Positions 2,873 to 14,458 of a stretch of 64,000 nucleotides of DNA are shown in pieces. The notes beneath the pieces are model-generated. The model worked only from the letters and a program-made list of their open reading frames with translations. It was not told where the DNA came from and did no database searches. Position 1 is the stretch's first letter, and each line of letters opens with the position of its first letter. The translations under genes and the position numbers were made by a program. This DNA comes from Adlercreutzia hattorii (lineage in GTDB: Bacteria; Actinomycetota; Coriobacteriia; Coriobacteriales; Eggerthellaceae). The stretch spans positions 2,651,001 through 2,715,000 of the forward strand of contig NZ_AP022829.1 in assembly GCF_011405655.1 (NCBI RefSeq), read 5' to 3'.

Positions 2873-4525
2873 TTACAGGCTGGCGACGTACTTGCCGGTC
2901 ACATAGCCCTGCGTGTGGGCACGGCCGAGAGACAGGCCCGGCATGTACATGGAGTAATCCACGCCGCCGTAGAAGTTGCCCGCGGTGTTGCCCACAGCGA
3001 ACAGACCCGGAATGGGCTCGCCGGCCTCAACGGCCAGCACTTCCATGTTCGGGCCAACGTTCACGCCAGACACGACGGCCGACACGCGCACATGACGGTG
3101 GATGCCGTAGAAGGGCGGCGTGTCGATGGCGGTCAGCCACTTGGCCTCCTTGCCGAAGTCGAGATCCTTGCCGGCGGCGACGCACTCGTTGTAGCGCTTC
3201 ACACTCTCGACGAACGCAGCCGTGTCGGTGATGCCGAGCTTCTCGGCCAGCTCTTCCAGCGTGTCGGCCTTAAACGTGGCGATCTGATCCTTGAAGACGC
3301 CGGTCTTCTCGCCGTCCTCCTCGGGCATGTACACCTTGATGGCCTCGGGATCGAACAGCTTGCCCGGCCACTCGGCGGCGGCGGTCATATAGTTGCTGTC
3401 GAAGATCTGGTTGTAATCACCCTGGTCGGCCTCGCTGCGCAGGAAGTTGTTCATAAGCGACATGCCGAGCGTCTCGTCGCAGAAACGCGTGCCGTCGTTC
3501 TTCACGGCCAGGAAGGGCATGTCAGCCATAGAGCCCGGGCCGCCGTCGAAGTCGTGCAGCATCTTGGTGTGCGTGATGTCCTCAATGGCACCGCCGGCCC
3601 ACACGGCCATCTTGTGGCCATCGCCGGTCTTGTTCATCTGCTTGCGACCGAGGTTCTGCAGGTCGGGCAGGTAGTAGGCCATCATGTCGTCGTCGTTCTG
3701 GTAGTCGCCCGTGGCCAGGATGACGCCCTTGGCGGCATTGAACTGCACGTTGCCGTCGGCGGTTTCCGCAATGACGCCGGTCACGCCGGAGGCATCGCCC
3801 ACAAGCTGCTTGGCCTCGGTGTCGTAGAACACGTCCACACCCTGAGAGGCAGCGTACTCGGCCAGCACCTGCATGCCGTTGCCCGTGTTGTAGGGCTTCG
3901 GGCCGAAGTCGATGGACAGGTAGTCCATGGGATAGCCGTTCACTTCCTTGATGGCGGCCGTCCACTTCATCGTGCTGTCGGAGATCTGGGCACCCTGGGC
4001 GGTAGCCAGGTCGAGCAGCCACGTGATGCACTCGCCGGAGTTCTTCGCCCACAGCTCCACCTGCTCGCGCTTGCCGCGGTACTGGTGATCCTTGATGAGG
4101 CGCGACACCACGGCCTCCACGCCGGCCGGGTCGGAGGTGTCCAGCAGAATGCCCGTAGCGGTGTTACCCTGGGAGATGGCCGTCGACTCCTTCTGAATGA
4201 GGGCGACGGTGGCTCCGGCCTCGCGAGCCGTAATGGCGGCGGGCACACCAGAGGCGCCGGCACCCACGACAACCACGTCGTAGTCCTTGGTCTCGGCGAT
4301 ATCCGTGATGGGCTCGGGCGCGGCCAGGAAGCTCGGAAGCCCCTCGCGCACGTGGCCAGCCACGGTGGTCGTACCGGTAGCGGCCGTCGGCGTGTCGCTC
4401 GAAGCGGAGCCGGCAGCGGCGCTGCCGGTCGGCGAGCAGGCGCCCAGAAGCGCGGCACCGCCGAGGCCCGCTGCAGCCAGGCCGCCGATCTTGAACAGGT
4501 TACGTCGAGTGAATTCAGCAGTCAT
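2873..4525 (-). CDS. Tat-exported FAD-dependent reductase lipoprotein (fumarate reductase/urocanate reductase superfamily)
   Basis: A 550-aa protein. The N-terminus has a twin-arginine motif TRRNLFK (Arg 7-8), a hydrophobic stretch and a lipobox-like LGAC ending at Cys 30, so it is probably folded with FAD, exported by Tat and lipid-anchored. A linker rich in Ser/Thr/Ala follows, then the FAD-binding Rossmann motif GAGASG at about 88-93. The rest is a flavoprotein reductase of the fumarate reductase/flavocytochrome c type with no haem domain. Near the C-terminus, where fumarate reductases usually carry an HxTxGG-like segment, this protein reads HRHVRVSAVVSG, so the substrate is probably not fumarate. 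It is divergent from a 12-TM LuxR gene, an arrangement common for Eggerthellaceae inducible reductases. The electron donor is not encoded here. Confidence 0.9.
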   Translation of the reverse strand: MTAEFTRRNLFKIGGLAAAGLGGAALLGACSPTGSAAAGSASSDTPTAATGTTTVAGHVREGLPSFLAAPEPITDIAETKDYDVVVVGAGASGVPAAITAREAGATVALIQKESTAISQGNTATGILLDTSDPAGVEAVVSRLIKDHQYRGKREQVELWAKNSGECITWLLDLATAQGAQISDSTMKWTAAIKEVNGYPMDYLSIDFGPKPYNTGNGMQVLAEYAASQGVDVFYDTEAKQLVGDASGVTGVIAETADGNVQFNAAKGVILATGDYQNDDDMMAYYLPDLQNLGRKQMNKTGDGHKMAVWAGGAIEDITHTKMLHDFDGGPGSMADMPFLAVKNDGTRFCDETLGMSLMNNFLRSEADQGDYNQIFDSNYMTAAAEWPGKLFDPEAIKVYMPEEDGEKTGVFKDQIATFKADTLEELAEKLGITDTAAFVESVKRYNECVAAGKDLDFGKEAKWLTAIDTPPFYGIHRHVRVSAVVSGVNVGPNMEVLAVEAGEPIPGLFAVGNTAGNFYGGVDYSMYMPGLSLGRAHTQGYVTGKYVASL

Positions 4526-4798: not shown

Positions 4799-6391
4799 AT
4801 GCACGGCGCACCGCAGGCTGCGAGCAAGAAACTCATAGGCAAGCCGGGGTCGGAGCCAACTCCGACTGCAGGCTCGGCTCCGACCTCAAGCGCGGCGCAA
4901 GCGCCGTCAGCATCCGGAGCATCGTCGGCACCTTCCGATCCTTCGGTCTTCGGAGGTACGGCGACCCCGGAGGTCACCGAGAGGCACCGCTTTCCTGTGG
5001 TTCCCTTCGTCTTCCTCGGCGTGGGCTTCTACCGTGCCTGGATCGAGATCGCTTTCGTCGGCTCGTTCGTGTCGTTTCCCGCGATCCCCTTCGGCGCGCG
5101 CGAGTGTTTTGATGGAGTGGGCGCCATCGTCATGCTCATCTGCGTGCTGCTCGCGCGGCGCATTGGCCCCTTCTACCGCCATCCGTCGATCTTCGTGCTC
5201 TGCGGCGCGTGCATGACGCTTGCCACCGTCGCACTGTTCGCCACCATGATCGTGCCGAGCCTCGGCTACACGGCAACATGGCTGGCCGCTATCGTCGGCG
5301 GCGTGGGAATGGGGCTTGTCATTCTTATATGGAGCGAGGTGTTCGGCTGCCTGAGCCCTTTGCGAGTCACCCTCTATTACACGGCCTCCATCGCCCTGGG
5401 CGCGGTGATCGTCTATGTTTTCATGGGGCTGCGCCTACCGTGGCTCGCTTGCCTCACCGCGCTGCTGCCGGCGGTATCGCTTGTGCTCGCACGGCGCAGC
5501 ATGAATCGCATCCCTGCAGAAAAACGACCCCAGCCGAACCTCGTCAACTTCAAACCGCCGTGGAAGATTTTCCTGCTCATGGCCTTGTACGGGTTCGCTT
5601 ACGGTATTTTGGAGACCCGCGTGTATACCGACTCCTTCGGGCCGCACTCATCGCCTGGCGTGCTTGTAGTGGCGCTCGTGATCTTCCTTAGCGTGGGCTT
5701 TCGCCGTGAGAAATTCGATTTCAACTCCATTGTGCGCATCGCGCTGCCGCTCACGGTGGCTGCGCTGTGGCTCGTGCCCATGTGGGGCGCGGGAGCCACC
5801 CTCCTCAGCGGTCCTTGTGCTATCGGGGGCTACACGGCCGCCACCGTGCTGATCATGGCGCTGTGCTCGAATATGTGCTATCGCCACGGCGTATCGGCCA
5901 TCTGGCTGTTCGGCATCGAGCGCTCGCTGCGACTCGCTTTCATGTTCCTCGGACGCACAGTGGCTAACACGGGAGAGCACGGAAGCCTCGGAGCCGCTGA
6001 TGGCGGCCTGCTCATTTCGGGCCTTTCCATGATCGCCGTCATCATGGCCACCGTGCTGCTGCTGTCCCAGAAGAATGTAGACGGCCAGTGGGGCCTCTCG
6101 TTTTTGAACGGCAGCGGGAAAAGCCGCGCCGATAAGCACGCGCAGCAGGTGGACAATCGGTGCGCCGCCCTCGCCGCCGAATACCACCTCACGGCGCGAG
6201 AGCTGGAGATCCTCAAGCTGCTCGCCCGACACAAGACCGTGGGCATGATCGAGCGCGAGCTGGTCATTGCCAACGGCACCGCCAAGGCCCATGTGCGCCA
6301 CATCTACCAAAAGCTGAACATCCATTCCCGAGAAGAGTTGTTCAACCTGCTTGATCCCCATCAGCTCGACCCTCTGGAAGAGCAGGAATAG
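4799..6391 (+). CDS. 12-TM membrane LuxR-family transcriptional regulator
   Basis: A 530-aa protein. Residues 1-60 are a Ser/Ala/Pro-rich cytoplasmic tail. About a dozen hydrophobic helices follow (roughly 65-430), and the C-terminus carries a LuxR/FixJ-type helix-turn-helix at about 462-520 (LTARELEILKLL, then NGTAKAHVRHIYQKL). This architecture, an MFS-like membrane sensor fused to a DNA-binding domain, is typical of Coriobacteriia and often sits beside an exported reductase. It is divergent from the FAD reductase, so control of that gene is likely (inference). The start is supported by GAGAGGGGG about 10 nt upstream. The ligand is unknown. Its HTH looks like that of the regulator at 10289. 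Confidence 0.9.
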   Translation: MHGAPQAASKKLIGKPGSEPTPTAGSAPTSSAAQAPSASGASSAPSDPSVFGGTATPEVTERHRFPVVPFVFLGVGFYRAWIEIAFVGSFVSFPAIPFGARECFDGVGAIVMLICVLLARRIGPFYRHPSIFVLCGACMTLATVALFATMIVPSLGYTATWLAAIVGGVGMGLVILIWSEVFGCLSPLRVTLYYTASIALGAVIVYVFMGLRLPWLACLTALLPAVSLVLARRSMNRIPAEKRPQPNLVNFKPPWKIFLLMALYGFAYGILETRVYTDSFGPHSSPGVLVVALVIFLSVGFRREKFDFNSIVRIALPLTVAALWLVPMWGAGATLLSGPCAIGGYTAATVLIMALCSNMCYRHGVSAIWLFGIERSLRLAFMFLGRTVANTGEHGSLGAADGGLLISGLSMIAVIMATVLLLSQKNVDGQWGLSFLNGSGKSRADKHAQQVDNRCAALAAEYHLTARELEILKLLARHKTVGMIERELVIANGTAKAHVRHIYQKLNIHSREELFNLLDPHQLDPLEEQE

Positions 6392-9459: not shown

Positions 9460-9909
9460 ATGAAGTTTCTCTACGAAGCCATCCTCACCCCGTGGAGCGG
9501 CGGGTGGGAAGCTGAGTTTCCCGACCTGGGTATCTGCACCCAGGGGGACACTCTGTTCGATGCGGCTTTCATGGCGCAAGATCTGCTGACCCTCTGGATC
9601 TCCCAAGCGCTTCGCGAAGGACGGCCCTTGCCGGAGCCGCGGATGGACCATCCCGCCCCCGCAAACGGCAAGGCCATCGCCGTTGCCGTGGAATGCGATG
9701 CCGACACGCCTTCCCTCACCACCATGACCGTCAAAGAAGCGGCGGATATCCTCGATGTCAGCACCTCGCGCATACACGCCATGATTCGCGACGGCATTCT
9801 GAGAACCGAGAAAGTTGGCAGCGCCCGTCTCGTATCGGCTGACGACGTGATGGATTACTTCAACAGCCCCCGCGTCGCCGGCCGTCCCAAGAAGATCGCA
9901 ACCGCCTAA
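9460..9909 (+). CDS. hicB: HicB-type antitoxin with C-terminal HTH
   Basis: A 149-aa protein. Residues 1-60 match the HicB partial RNase H fold (YEAILTPWSGGWEAEFPDLG, CTQGDTLFDA), which binds HicA. Residues 90-132 form an excisionase/MerR-like helix-turn-helix (MTVKEAADILDVSTSRIHAM), so it should bind the operon promoter. The tail GRPKKIATA is basic. A GAGAGGAAG site precedes the start. HicB proteins more often carry ribbon-helix-helix or XRE domains, so this pairing is less usual. The product should both neutralise HicA and repress the operon. Confidence 0.88.
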   Translation: MKFLYEAILTPWSGGWEAEFPDLGICTQGDTLFDAAFMAQDLLTLWISQALREGRPLPEPRMDHPAPANGKAIAVAVECDADTPSLTTMTVKEAADILDVSTSRIHAMIRDGILRTEKVGSARLVSADDVMDYFNSPRVAGRPKKIATA

Positions 9910-9970: not shown

Positions 9971-10010
9971 AAATGCCATGTGAGACAATTTCGACAAGAA
10001 GGGGGACGAT

Positions 10011-10292
10011 ATGATTGCACCAGTATACGCCCGCGTTGGCCAGACGATAACACTGGAAGGTTATGCCGACGATTTTGGCTCGCACATTGTTGCGATTGAG
10101 TTCTCGCTGGACGGGGGCACCACCTGGGAGCGCCACTCCACCGAGGCGAGTACGCCCGACCGCTCGGTGCACTGGACGTTCCAATGGACACCTGAGGAAG
10201 AAGGCGCCTATCCGTTAAAAGTGCGGTCGGTCACCGAAGACGGCCGCGTGAGCCCCGAAGCCGCAGCCGCCGATATCGTCGTTTCGCAATGA
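10011..10292 (+). CDS. Stand-alone Moco-oxidoreductase dimerisation-like domain
   Basis: A 93-aa protein consisting of one immunoglobulin-like beta domain of the type found at the C-terminus of sulfite oxidase-family enzymes (LEGYADDFGSHIVAIEFS, DGGTTWERHS, WTPEEEGAYPLKVRS). The same pattern ends the haem-Moco fusion at 12033 (FEGYADAYTEPITRVEYS, DGGKTW). No signal peptide is visible, so as annotated it is cytoplasmic. AAGGGGG precedes the ATG, and its stop overlaps the next gene start by 4 nt (ATGA), which implies coupled translation with the LuxR regulator. It could be a trimmed remnant of an enzyme or a regulatory partner; no function is assigned. Confidence 0.75.
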   Translation: MIAPVYARVGQTITLEGYADDFGSHIVAIEFSLDGGTTWERHSTEASTPDRSVHWTFQWTPEEEGAYPLKVRSVTEDGRVSPEAAAADIVVSQ

Positions 10293-11812
10293 GGATCGCA
10301 GCGGACAACCTACGCACCGCCCAGGCGGTGGCGTGCGCGACCATCGGTATCACGGCCACCATTCTCTGGTGCAAGCTCATGGGGCATTCTCCAGGCTTTC
10401 TTCTGGCCACCGCGGGTTTGGGCGACTGGGCCAACGCCCGGGTGTTCTGGCTGGTCGGCATACTTCTGTGCTCGCTTTTGTGTTTGTTTCTGCCGCAATC
10501 GATGAAGCGCTCCGACGCTATACTGCAGTACGTGCTGCCTCTAATCGGCGCAGCCGGTGCGATGATGTTCGCCCTGTCGTTTCACCAGGACTTCTTCGAC
10601 CCGCGCATGCTGGCAGTGGCGGGCATTATCGCTTCAGGCTTCGGCTACTTCTGGCTTATCTCGCGGTTCGTGCTCACGCTGACCTTCTCCCGCGGACTGC
10701 CCTGCATGGTGTGGGCCTTCGCTGCAGCCTTCCCCCTGAGACAAATTACGCTGGCTGTCCTGGACGCCACGATGTCCCACGAAGCCCAAGTGCTGCTTGC
10801 CATGGCGCTTCCCGTCATCGCCGCGCTGATGCTGGGCGCAACGCGCCTCATCGTCGGTTCCGCCGATGAGGCGCCGACCGCAACCGACAAGGCAGAGCGC
10901 ACTCCGAAAAGCGAGAAGCGCTACCTGATCATTGTCGTATTCGCCATGGCCCTCATGCTATCGGTGGTGCGTGCCTGCAGTATTTCGGGCGTCTGGGGCA
11001 CCGACCATACCATCGGGCTGAGCTTCTCCTCTGTCGCTTTCAACGTGCTCTTCCAAATCGTCGTGCTGGGGCTCTTCTGCCAGTTCGCCATTATCCACAT
11101 GACGCGCTATCCCATGGCCGTGCGCTTCCAGGTTGGGATTGCACTCGTCATGGCGAGCCTTGTCATTGCCGCGCTGCGTTCGTCGCTCTCGTGGGGCGCA
11201 TCGCCGGTGCTCGACAGCATTGTGAACGTCAACGACCCCATGGCGCTCTTGCTCTTCTGGTCGACAACGGCCTGCGCGACTCAAACCATTCGCCTGCCGA
11301 GCAACCGCATCGTTGGTGGAGCGGGAGCAGCCTATGCGCTGCCTTCCATCATATGGGTCGTTCTCATTACTGGGGAAAATGCCGTTGATAGCGCATTCGT
11401 GCTGATTGCAGTGTACCTGCTGTTCCTCTTTTTCATGGCAGCGTCGTTACAGCTGCGTCCGGGTGCGAGCCGCAGCAATGCCGACACCTCGGTTGCCGAC
11501 GCGCCCGTCGCTGTGACCGCATTGGCCGGCACCAACGTCACCGAAACCCACGAAGACGCTCCGAATGCCAGTGAGGAACTGGTCCGCATCGTGGCCGCCC
11601 GCTGCAACGAGGTGGGCGACCAGTACGGCCTCTCCCCGCGTGAGCGCGATGTGCTGCGGCTGCTGGCCCAGGGACGCACCAGCGGCGCTATTCAGGAGGA
11701 GTTGACGCTGGCAGCCAGCACCGTGAAAACCCATATGCAGCACATCTACGCCAAGGTAGGCGTGAACGATCGCCAGCAGCTCATGGAAGAAATATTCGAA
11801 AAAACCGACTGA
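10289..11812 (+). CDS. 12-TM membrane LuxR-family transcriptional regulator
   Basis: A 507-aa protein with about twelve hydrophobic helices over residues 15-385. A polar linker follows, then a LuxR-type HTH at about 445-500 (LSPRERDVLRLLAQGRTSG, STVKTHMQHIYAKVG). It overlaps the domain gene at 10011 by 4 nt and precedes the haem-Moco fusion by 220 nt. A terminator lies between, so the downstream genes are probably its regulatory target and not part of its operon. It has the same architecture as the gene at 4799. The sensed signal is unknown. Confidence 0.9.
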   Translation: MRIAADNLRTAQAVACATIGITATILWCKLMGHSPGFLLATAGLGDWANARVFWLVGILLCSLLCLFLPQSMKRSDAILQYVLPLIGAAGAMMFALSFHQDFFDPRMLAVAGIIASGFGYFWLISRFVLTLTFSRGLPCMVWAFAAAFPLRQITLAVLDATMSHEAQVLLAMALPVIAALMLGATRLIVGSADEAPTATDKAERTPKSEKRYLIIVVFAMALMLSVVRACSISGVWGTDHTIGLSFSSVAFNVLFQIVVLGLFCQFAIIHMTRYPMAVRFQVGIALVMASLVIAALRSSLSWGASPVLDSIVNVNDPMALLLFWSTTACATQTIRLPSNRIVGGAGAAYALPSIIWVVLITGENAVDSAFVLIAVYLLFLFFMAASLQLRPGASRSNADTSVADAPVAVTALAGTNVTETHEDAPNASEELVRIVAARCNEVGDQYGLSPRERDVLRLLAQGRTSGAIQEELTLAASTVKTHMQHIYAKVGVNDRQQLMEEIFEKTD

Positions 11813-11845
11813 CGCGACCGACGATGCCGTTGATCAGGCATTATT

Positions 11846-11888
11846 GCGGCCCATCCTCCATGAAGGGGGATGGGCCGCTCTCTTGTTT
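11846..11888 (+). terminator. Rho-independent terminator after the LuxR gene
   Basis: An 11-bp perfect stem GCGGCCCATCC (11846-11856) pairs with 11868-11878, followed by TCTCTTGTTT. It separates the regulator transcript from the haem-Moco gene. Confidence 0.8.
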
Positions 11889-11946
11889 ACGGACAAAAAT
11901 CGGGTATCAGGACGATGGTGCGCCTTTCTTTCGCCTCCTAGAATCA

Positions 11947-12008
11947 CTCACCGGCGAGGAGAACCAGCGAGCCGGCCAAGCACACCGGCCGCCCTCCCTG
12001 CCGGTGAG
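11947..12008 (+). promoter_or_regulatory. Structured leader, candidate Moco-type riboswitch
   Basis: A 9-bp outer helix CTCACCGGC (11947-11955) pairs with GCCGGTGAG (12000-12008). Inside is a GCCGG/CCGGC hairpin, and a CGCCCTCCCTG stretch precedes the closing strand. It ends 24 nt before the start of a gene for a molybdopterin-fold protein. The layout and the CUCCC stretch recall Moco RNA leaders, but the match was judged by eye only. Confidence 0.4.
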
Positions 12009-12032
12009 AGGAATCTTGAAGAAAGGAATACT

Positions 12033-13649
12033 ATGAGAGGGAAGAGAAGGGTCGCTCTGGCCACCTGCGCCTGCGCCACATGTGCCGTAATGCTGCTGGC
12101 CGCCTGCTCGCCGCAGCTGGCATCGACCGGAGCCCAAGAAGAGGGGAACGCCGACGACGGCAAGGTGTACGTTGACGGCAAAATTGGCAGCAAAATTGGT
12201 TATGAGAGCGACGGCCGTCTTATCGATCACATCGATCAGCTTCCGCAGATTTACTCCCATGCCGAGGAAGAGGAGCGCAACGCCGAACTGAACCAGCCGT
12301 CCACCTACACCGACCGCAACGGCTTCGAGATTCAGCCGGTGCCGGCCGACCCCAAAGGCTACAACATGACCTGGCTCGACGGCGAACAGCGCGGCTGCCT
12401 GTCGTGCCACGAAACGCTGGAAGACGCCCAGATGAACCAGCCCACCTACCATCGCCTCATCATCATGGGCTATCCCGTTGAGCAAGGCGTGCAGAACTGC
12501 CTGATGTGTCACGACACTTGGCAGCCCAACGCCAACAAGCTGAAGGACAATATCCACCAGACCCATATGAACAACGAGCTGTTCGACGACATGGGCGGCA
12601 ACTGCATGTCGTGTCACCATATTAATGACGATGGCGATTTCGTGCTGTGGGATGTGGCGAAGTACGACCTGTACAAAGGCTACAACCTCGTCGATGCCGA
12701 GGAGTCGGGCGCAACGCTCTCCTACGATCAGGACACTATCACGCCGCTCGAGAACCAGTTCTACAAGACTATCAAGTCAGAGCCTTCCGAGTGGACCAAT
12801 GACGACACGAACATCGATCCTTCGGTTTACGAGAACTGGACCATCAGCATCGAAGGCGACGTAGCCAACCCCATCACGATGACGCTGCCCGAGCTGAAGG
12901 AGAAGTTCGGCACCAAGACCGCCGTGCTGAAGAACCACTGCAACGTAAACGGTACCGGTCAGGGCACCATTTACCAGGCCGAGGTGACCGGCATTCCGCT
13001 GAAGGACGTCATCGAGTTCTGTCAGCCGACCGATGGCGCCAACGGCTACACGCCGAAAGGCTACGACGGATTCGGCAACCTCATGCCCATGGAATACCTC
13101 GACGAGAACGCGCTCATCGTGCTGGAAGTGAATGGGGAGACGCTGCGGCCCTCTCAGGGCTATCCGGCGGCCATTTGGGTCGGCGGCGGCGCGGCGGGCG
13201 CCGAGTTCCCCAAGTACGTCTCGAGCATCACCATTTCCACAGAAGACGATGCCGACAAACTGTGGACGCACCCGCGTCACGGAACGAATGTCAAGCCCAG
13301 CGTGACGCCCGATCCGAAAGTCGTGTTCTACCCCAACGCCGGCGTGCTCAACTACCCCACTAACGTTGTCTTGAACGATCAGGTCGGCAAGGAGATTACC
13401 TTCGAAGGCTACGCCGACGCCTACACCGAGCCCATCACCCGCGTCGAGTATTCTCTCGACGGCGGCAAGACGTGGCTGACCATGGAGACCCCGAATACCG
13501 ATGTCGATCGCTGGGTCTACTGGCGCATGAACTTCACGCCGCAGGAAGCCGGATCCTACCATTTGAAGATCCGCGCGTTCTCCCAAGCGGCCGATGGCAC
13601 CGAGCACGCCCCCACCTACACCACCGACTACCAGTTCACGGTTAGATAG
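12033..13649 (+). CDS. Triple-CxxCH lipoprotein fused to sulfite-oxidase-like Moco and dimerisation domains
   Basis: A 538-aa protein. The start at 12033 follows GAAAGGA. The N-terminus is a lipoprotein signal ending LLAAC (Cys 25). Three c-type haem motifs follow: CLSCH at 122-126, CLMCH at 156-160 and CMSCH at 191-195. Residues about 260-430 resemble the oxidoreductase molybdopterin-binding fold (LPELKEKFG, LKNHCNVNG with Cys 303 as possible Mo ligand, IPLKDVIEF, LIVLEVNGE). Residues about 435-538 are the Ig-like dimerisation domain (DGGKTW, YWRMNFTPQEAGSY). It should be a membrane-anchored extracytoplasmic enzyme passing electrons between haems and the Mo site. The substrate is unknown. 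The next gene encodes a separate copy of the Moco-like domain. Confidence 0.85.
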   Translation: MRGKRRVALATCACATCAVMLLAACSPQLASTGAQEEGNADDGKVYVDGKIGSKIGYESDGRLIDHIDQLPQIYSHAEEEERNAELNQPSTYTDRNGFEIQPVPADPKGYNMTWLDGEQRGCLSCHETLEDAQMNQPTYHRLIIMGYPVEQGVQNCLMCHDTWQPNANKLKDNIHQTHMNNELFDDMGGNCMSCHHINDDGDFVLWDVAKYDLYKGYNLVDAEESGATLSYDQDTITPLENQFYKTIKSEPSEWTNDDTNIDPSVYENWTISIEGDVANPITMTLPELKEKFGTKTAVLKNHCNVNGTGQGTIYQAEVTGIPLKDVIEFCQPTDGANGYTPKGYDGFGNLMPMEYLDENALIVLEVNGETLRPSQGYPAAIWVGGGAAGAEFPKYVSSITISTEDDADKLWTHPRHGTNVKPSVTPDPKVVFYPNAGVLNYPTNVVLNDQVGKEITFEGYADAYTEPITRVEYSLDGGKTWLTMETPNTDVDRWVYWRMNFTPQEAGSYHLKIRAFSQAADGTEHAPTYTTDYQFTVR

Positions 13650-13657
13650 GACTCATC

Positions 13658-14458
13658 ATGACCGATATCAAACGCATCACGCTGAGCAGCCTGGCCGCCG
13701 CAACGCTGCTGGCAAGCGGCGCGGGAACTGCCCTGGCCGCCGACTACCCTGTCACCGATACCGCCGACGTCGAAGCCACCACCGCCACATCTTCCGTCGA
13801 TGACGCAACCGCCATTCAACGAGCAAGCAACCCGAGGCCCGTCGAAGGTACCTTTACTTGGGATCAGAGCACCATCACCTCCAACGAGCGCATCTCGCAG
13901 ATGTTCAGCAAGGCGGTGGCACACCTCTGCGGCTCCGTTGCCGATCTGGCCCAGGACAACCCTCTGCAATGGCGACTGGCGGTATCCGGTGACGTCGCGA
14001 ACGCCTTTACCGCCACCGTGGACGAAATGGCCGCCGAGGACTCCGTGCAAGACACCATGTCCTGCACCTGTGGCGCCAATCCAACCGACGGCGGCGCCAC
14101 TATTACCGCCGAGGTCAAGGGCATTCCCGTTACGTACCTGATCGAGCGTGCCGAAGCCTGCGACGGGGCGAACGCCATCACTTTCATCTCCTCGGACGGC
14201 ACTGAAACTATGATGCCTTTAGGTTATGTCATCGGTCGTCACGCTGTCATTTCTTACGAGGTGAATGGCGAAGACCTTTCCGCATCCGTCGGAGGCAATA
14301 ATCAGCTTTGGATGACGCGAACGCCTGCCGGTTACTTTGTGCGCGATATCGTCGAGGTGCGCATCACAAAAGAGGAAGCGACACCGGCTATACCGGGCGA
14401 GGGACACACCTACCCCAATAGCCCGAATGTAGGCATCACGACCGCTTCGGTCGCTTAA
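13658..14458 (+). CDS. Secreted sulfite-oxidase-fold (molybdopterin-binding-like) protein
   Basis: A 266-aa protein with a Sec-type signal peptide (hydrophobic LAAATLLASGAGTALA, cleavage near residue 28). The mature part resembles the oxidoreductase molybdopterin-binding fold: a beta-rich region with WRLAVSGDV, Cys-containing MSCTCGAN, VKGIPVTYLIERAE, the ISSDGTETMMPL strand and a C-terminal VRDIVEVRITKE. Whether it holds cofactor is unclear, since the usual basic pterin-binding residues are not obvious. It starts 8 nt after the haem-Moco fusion, so the two are co-transcribed and may form a complex. A strong terminator follows. It contains no haem motif. Confidence 0.75.
   Translation: MTDIKRITLSSLAAATLLASGAGTALAADYPVTDTADVEATTATSSVDDATAIQRASNPRPVEGTFTWDQSTITSNERISQMFSKAVAHLCGSVADLAQDNPLQWRLAVSGDVANAFTATVDEMAAEDSVQDTMSCTCGANPTDGGATITAEVKGIPVTYLIERAEACDGANAITFISSDGTETMMPLGYVIGRHAVISYEVNGEDLSASVGGNNQLWMTRTPAGYFVRDIVEVRITKEEATPAIPGEGHTYPNSPNVGITTASVA

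Follow-up and report, generated by a model that had tools for sequence, protein, structure and literature searches.

A 64,000-nucleotide (nt) window of the Adlercreutzia hattorii genome, bases 2651001-2715000 of its one contig of 2,908,404 bases, encodes three products that carry separable parts of the sulfite oxidase fold. These are a lone dimerisation domain (D), a triheme lipoprotein with the full fold, in which a molybdenum cofactor (Moco)-type domain is combined with a dimerisation domain (F), and a secreted Moco-type domain alone (S); a LuxR-type regulator gene stands between D and F, and S starts 8 nt past the F stop codon. We propose, with about even confidence, that F and S represent a paralogous family of candidate respiratory reductases at the cell surface, in which the second chain has been split and its C-terminal part, either D or a longer form (cSD), acts as a partner before export. 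A cell-surface redox enzyme appears the likeliest use by analogy with the flavin- and molybdenum-dependent reductases of these bacteria (PMC11574389, PMC13060105).

The division of the fold among the three products, originally predicted from the DNA alone, is borne out by profile comparisons and, for D, by a structure model. D reaches 20.6 bits against Pfam Mo-co_dimer (E 4.8e-4; curated cut-off 22.7 bits) and aligns with positions 300-377 of the SorA profile at E 2.4e-8. Its AlphaFold model, based on an alignment of four sequences, has a predicted local distance difference test score (pLDDT) of 84.6, and a Foldseek search with this model places only sulfite oxidases and sulfite dehydrogenases in its top 22 ranks (TM-scores of 0.66-0.74, normalised by query length), other immunoglobulin-like (Ig-like) domains appearing from rank 23. 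F has a LAAC lipobox and matches Oxidored_molyb with 77.9 bits (E 9e-22; curated cut-off 24) and reaches 20.6 bits against Mo-co_dimer (curated cut-off 22.7); a profile of 15 F aligns with SorA at E 3e-33, with the F ligand cysteine on SorA C104. S has a signal-like N-terminus and matches Oxidored_molyb over residues 100-241 (E 5e-14, 52.6 bits, cut-off 24). Structure prediction thus places D inside the sulfite oxidase fold; because the model of S, likewise from four sequences, is too poor for a fold search (pLDDT 44.6), the assignment of S rests on the Pfam profile and on homology to SD chains, in which S and D are fused.

D is a real gene rather than a product of chance, since its ratio of non-synonymous to synonymous change (pN/pS) against the orthologue in the DNA stretch L036 is 0.10, with synonymous sites near saturation, and since the set recurs across genera. 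On the grounds of conservation, this ratio and the fold, we rejected a chance open reading frame or a gene remnant. The shortness of D and its separation from S in the window might suggest that an F or S gene was lost and D is what is left of its decay, but such an origin is most improbable given the pN/pS of 0.10, a ribosome-binding site of its own, a similar start and length across genera, and a place among other lone D in the domain tree described below.

How general is the pairing of F with S? Genes were called from mechanical reading frames and home-made profiles, and a partner counted as directly downstream if it was on the same strand and its stop codon followed the F stop codon by less than 1600 nt (1500 nt in the neighbour count of 60 D and cSD genes). 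PF00174 marks 12 places in the source genome: eight F, two S, one SD and one C-half protein. All eight F are directly followed by an S-type gene, which takes one of three forms, namely S accompanied by a separate D (two cases), the full chain SD (one), or a half-domain, Sh (five), to which the one C-half protein of the genome, cSD, is complementary in sequence. Across the Eggerthellaceae, PF00174 occurs in 30 of 109 genomes among the matches listed, and F was mapped in all 30. When F genes were chosen by F alone (89 of the 90 F rows among the Eggerthellaceae PF00174 matches listed), the S-type gene was downstream in 88 (S 57, Sh 29, SD 2) and upstream in one; in an enlarged set of 108 F, chosen partly through D and S, it was downstream in 107 (S 62, Sh 30, SD 15) and again upstream in one. 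Sh counts that include L078 are one too high. The stretch L081 duplicates L037 and was removed, though it is still among the 70 F and 70 S-type genes of the signal controls; a row of alignment A4 that spanned the wrong gene end was set aside. Two S-type genes in L134 have no upstream F, which was probably cut off by the end of the stretch.

D belongs to the same set. A lone D or cSD accompanies F in 33 of 35 genomes or records (it was not seen in G006 and G086), and the order D-LuxR-F-S is found also in L036 and L069. The three genes co-occur, an S-type gene standing beside each of the 108 F. While D stands alone in the window, it adjoins S in L028, the two D being 53% identical. The D profile, which also sees the dimerisation domain of F, matched 31 of the 109 family genomes among the matches listed: the 30 with F and G090, the single match among the 79 genomes without PF00174. 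Named relatives of S were found in an uncultured Adlercreutzia (82% identity), A. caecimuris B7 and Slackia equolifaciens. In a class-wide scan with the S profile, at most six candidates per genome being scored as in the phylum scan, 58 of 383 genomes were matched among the matches listed. Of these, 31 are Eggerthellaceae and three (G361, G372 and G373, at E 1e-55 or better) come from two further families of the order; the other 24, from the rest of the class, show a single weak match apiece (E 1e-10 to 1e-6). In a phylum sample of 396 genomes, no listed match outside the class was stronger than 1.6e-19. In G004, of the same genus as the source and with no PF00174 match, a frame of 164 codons gives a short match to S, possibly the remnant of a lost F–S locus.

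The second chain is broken at two points. Sh comprises about 160 residues and ends just past a GVSL-type helix; one of four Sh tested gave a Pfam match, at E 0.022. The complementary cSD, of which the source genome has a copy in L029, begins with M-x-CNTVTF or a variant at the point where Sh ends, and continues through the C-half of the Moco-type domain, including an NQLW...RDI motif that in S forms part of one chain, into D. Tallied by eye at E 1e-15 or better and cross-checked with locus maps, cSD is present in 13 of 35 genomes, that is in 13 of the 15 with Sh and in none of the 20 without, among the matches listed (Fisher p 7e-8, relatedness ignored). Common descent from a split gene accounts for this co-occurrence, and that both halves are conserved points to a use for each. 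When each lone gene was assigned to the nearest F of its stretch, the partner of D was S in 58 of 62 cases (otherwise Sh in two, SD in one and no F in one), and that of cSD was Sh in 10 of 14; the remaining four stretches held no F. One of the two cases of D with Sh is an artefact, because the Sh of L078 is an S cut by the contig end. In at least seven places S and D share one frame and are split by a single stop codon; read-through from S into D was considered and rejected, as D is also found out of frame with S, on the opposite strand and at distances of kilobases.

Comparison of sequences points to shared history as well. Distances among D correlate with those among F (Mantel r 0.635, 55 pairs), a value that none of 5000 within-genome shuffles reached (maximum 0.510); for 26 of the 55, the closest F and the closest D in another genome belong to one and the same locus, and physical linkage alone could explain part of the correlation. 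In a tree of D domains, whose short alignment leaves many forks open, the domains of F form one clade (SH-aLRT 90, also the root), those of SD a second (93), and the forms without a signal, 50 D, 10 cSD and 10 fusions to a phosphatase, a third (95).

Where would the parts of the second chain meet? None of 60 D and cSD N-termini passes a hydrophobicity threshold of 1.8 (highest value 1.65, any upstream extension of the frame included), whereas 69 of the 70 F and 49 of the 70 S-type proteins do. The test is crude, as the failure of 21 S-type proteins with signal-like N-termini makes clear; the stronger point is that the domain of D begins only a few residues past its likely start. D is hence probably not simply the dimerisation subunit of a surface enzyme. 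The original prediction of a respiratory enzyme with domains in trans holds insofar as the chains are split, as S and D or as Sh and cSD; its simplest form, with D as a plain surface partner, is made improbable by the missing signals and by the clade that the signal-less forms share.

Taken as originally meant, domains in trans would imply that S or Sh brings D and cSD, which have no signal themselves, through the membrane with it, so that the second chain is completed on the surface; we consider this somewhat unlikely. The distribution of cSD, which supplies the Moco-type C-half where Sh stops, would suit such a route, as would the SD fusions, in which D follows the exported S part in one chain. 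However, export of a folded partner that is carried along needs the twin-arginine translocation (Tat) system, and the S-type proteins have the strict Tat motif in 0 of 69 and any RR in 5 of 69. Nor would D often be expected apart from S, for example beside LuxR, or a single cSD be expected to serve the five Sh of the source genome.

A role for D independent of S is an unlikely alternative: D would be a cytosolic regulatory module that works with LuxR or, where fused, with a tyrosine phosphatase. The overlap of D with the LuxR gene in the window, the recurrence of that gene order, and the ten phosphatase–D fusions within the signal-less clade, with another in G090, a genome without PF00174, are all consistent with this. 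Yet S or Sh lies within 700 nt of 37 of the 60 D and cSD genes, LuxR within that distance of 13, and a module unrelated to S leaves the Moco-type C-half of cSD unexplained. The source genome has one such fusion itself, D joined to a Y_phosphatase3 domain (L031, 2782-3819, minus strand). By the motif HCxxGKDRT, others were found in L089, L090, L091, L092, L094, L098, L099, L100, L105, L163 and L164. None has an evident signal peptide, and they often share a stretch with F–S.

From these observations we infer a redox function and its direction, a cofactor, a contact between F and S, and a role for D, as follows. F and S would be two exported subunits of a surface redox enzyme, which most likely reduces a small molecule. 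The three bis-histidine haems of lipoprotein F would take up electrons and hand them on to the C303 site of its sulfite oxidase fold, with S, produced together with F, as a second chain of the same fold that lacks haems. That second chain is a single protein, SD, in some loci and mostly cut in two, as S and D or as Sh and cSD, the export signal remaining on the first part only. The complementing halves argue that D and S meet, and the missing signals that they do so in the cytosol; D or cSD would probably join the first part there before export, as a partner in assembly or control. A more radical version, which we hold to be unlikely, has the ancestral chain divided across the membrane at its two break points. 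The N-terminal part would be exported and work on the surface with its haem-fused sister, while the signal-less C-terminal part, retained in many genera, would remain in the cytosol, bind the N-terminal part ahead of its export and report on it or control it through LuxR or a fused tyrosine phosphatase. In that case, the surface enzyme would either obtain Moco by some route other than Tat or employ the fold with no Moco in it.

The haem region of F has the pattern of a multihaem c-type cytochrome. Three CxxCH motifs are present in 101 of the 108 distinct F, and the other seven have two CxxCH and one CxxxxCH, which is the first haem motif in the F of L076, L078, L079, L080, L103, L117 and L144. 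H175 and H178 are invariant and H140 nearly so in an alignment of 15 F; lying within or between the haem motifs, these histidines are likely the distal haem ligands. A check of Moco ligand conservation found the cysteine at the ligand position in 108 of 108 F and in all 107 S-type proteins with a residue there. G-x-P and a lysine or arginine at column 204 are likewise kept in every F, and asparagine at column 115 in 100. S-type proteins have a specific CxC, its first cysteine in 106 and its second in all 107, and a further cysteine in 100 of 106.

Several observations weigh against the proposed enzyme. The arginine two residues after the proline of G-x-P, which we take to be canonical for the sulfite oxidase superfamily and which SorA has, occurs in only 13 of 108 F; the consensus of 15 F has no arginine at SorA R109, presumably the substrate arginine, and a shorter loop there. 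Surface Moco enzymes as a working rule mature through Tat export, and we know of no Moco enzyme of bacterial surfaces that is exported otherwise. The strict Tat motif, however, is found in 2 of 69 F and in no S-type protein, so that by their N-termini F and S look Sec-exported; a loose rule finds RR in 13 of 54 F, that of the window included, where its L069 orthologue has KK. Furthermore, 21 of 70 S-type proteins fail the hydropathy test on which the contrast with D in part relies, Sh occurs with no cSD detected among the matches listed in G006 and G065, and cSD, as the C-half of a domain, should need the N-half to fold, an awkward requirement across compartments. Finally, no electron donor gene was recognised near the D-LuxR-F-S set in the window. 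Elsewhere, genes that by eye resemble electron-transfer flavoproteins and a ferredoxin lie directly upstream of an F–Sh pair (L033, 6229-9485, minus strand).

Another possibility, tentative but to be taken seriously, is that F and S no longer bind Moco and that the fold serves as a scaffold, an electron conduit or, through the CxC of S, a thiol site, with haems and cysteines doing the chemistry. Sec-type signals, the rarity of the canonical arginine, the S-specific CxC with its third cysteine and the existence of Sh forms without half of the Moco-type domain would all be understandable on these terms. The strict retention of ligand cysteine, G-x-P and the basic residue at column 204 in F would not, and the Moco biosynthesis marker MoaC is present in all 30 F-bearing genomes. 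MoaC is, though, also found in 70 of the 79 others, and DMSO-reductase-type enzymes in 107 of 109 genomes (E 1e-10), so neither discriminates for use of Moco by F.

The LuxR gene bears on the use of the system. As predicted, it overlaps D, and its product is a membrane protein with about 11-12 transmembrane (TM) segments: crude hydropathy gives 11 hydrophobic segments, and the GerE domain matches at E 5e-15, which fits 10-12 TM segments followed by a C-terminal GerE. Of 88 testable F loci, 47 have a LuxR gene with 300 or more codons no farther than 3 kb away, 20 of the 108 F being too near a stretch end to count. The distribution depends on the partner, with 23 of 23 Sh loci, 11 of 12 SD loci, 12 of 52 S loci and one F with Sh upstream. 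Dedicated LuxR control, part of the original proposal, is therefore not general for the S kind, of which 40 of 52 loci have no LuxR within that distance. In Eggerthella lenta, catechol dehydroxylases are switched on by multi-TM LuxR regulators that respond to the substrates of these enzymes, and it has been proposed that such regulators are linked to other neighbouring enzymes as well (PMC9734109). For three members of the regulator family that have been characterised, inducer and enzyme substrate coincide, and editing tools for the laboratory strain E. lenta DSM 2243 have been published (PMC9734109). By this analogy the LuxR neighbours support a substrate-specific respiratory use of F and S.

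What would such a family mean? Gut Eggerthellaceae alter drugs, plant compounds and host molecules through large sets of reductases. The division of the second chain, with a signal on one half, raises a testable question about export, cofactor loading or control, and should F turn out to bind Moco although exported outside Tat, a working rule of Moco enzyme maturation would come into question. If our proposal is correct, a third paralogous set, combining the sulfite oxidase fold with haems and present in eight copies in one genome, would stand beside the two superfamilies counted in PMC9734109 and PMC13060105. In a partial literature search, no title or abstract opening described the F–S family, and no paper covered mentioned Eggerthella lenta or Coriobacteriia together with sulfite oxidase.

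The coordinates first given for this region all stood on re-examination and are collected below with those of other genes in the window.

Table 1. Features of the D-LuxR-F-S locus, followed by further genes of the window (positions in the window)
Feature	Position	Strand	Remarks
D, lone sulfite-oxidase dimerisation (Ig-like) domain, 93 residues	10011..10292	+	no signal peptide seen
Ribosome-binding site of D	~10000-10005	+	AGGGGG
LuxR-type regulator, ~11-12 TM segments	10289..11812	+	start codon overlaps D stop by 4 nt (ATGA)
F, triheme lipoprotein with full sulfite-oxidase fold (Moco-type and dimerisation domains), 538 residues	12033..13649	+	
Lipobox cysteine of F, C25	12105..12107	+	lipobox LAAC
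Three CxxCH haem motifs of F	12396..12617	+	C122, C156, C191
Moco-type domain of F	12828..13250	+	residues 266-406
C303 of F	12939-12941	+	Moco-ligand position
Dimerisation domain of F	13362..13646	+	
S, secreted stand-alone Moco-type domain, 266 residues	13658..14458	+	conserved C91 and C136-x-C138
Flavin-reductase-like gene	2873-4525	-	named by eye; RR and lipobox-like N-terminus
Second multi-TM LuxR gene	4799-6391	+	by eye; faces the flavin-reductase-like gene, a theme known in these bacteria
Gene with weak HicB-like N-terminal match and excisionase-type helix-turn-helix (HTH)	9460-9909	+	
Short third LuxR-HTH protein, 193 residues	17596-18177	+	

How do F and S compare with known members of the superfamily? 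F resembles SorA and SorT in combining a Moco-type domain with a following dimerisation domain and in its ligand cysteine, the equivalent of SorA C104. It differs in adding three haems and a lipid anchor, in having no strict Tat motif, in its shorter loop with no consensus arginine at the R109 position, and in having as its partner a second sulfite-oxidase-type chain. Against the NCBIfam equivalogs, F scores 53.8 bits for SorA (cut-off 600), 52.3 for SorT (570) and 55.7 for SoxC (420), all far below the cut-offs, and by these family tests F is no sulfite dehydrogenase. The superfamily also includes a reductase, the methionine sulfoxide reductase MsrP (YedY), to whose equivalog F scores 15.8 bits (cut-off 207) and S has no match listed; unlike MsrP, F and S have no strict Tat motif, and S has its CxC. 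In SoxCD a sulfite-oxidase-type chain works with c-type haem, as we propose for F, but the haems of SoxCD are on a separate subunit whereas those of F are fused to the chain.

Outside the superfamily, the closest parallels lie in the same bacteria. The 12-TM LuxR proteins of E. lenta, DadR, CadR and HcdR, share with the LuxR of the window a multi-TM N-terminus, a GerE domain and a place beside redox enzymes; unlike them, the window LuxR overlaps D, and LuxR is not general at F–S loci of the S kind. Flavin- and molybdenum-dependent reductases are described in these bacteria in PMC11574389 and PMC13060105. The COG1053 and COG0243 reductases of Eggerthellaceae form large paralogous sets under substrate-specific control (PMC9734109, PMC13060105), and the sub-clustering published in PMC13060105 used these two groups. 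F likewise forms a paralogous set, but one that belongs to the sulfite oxidase superfamily.

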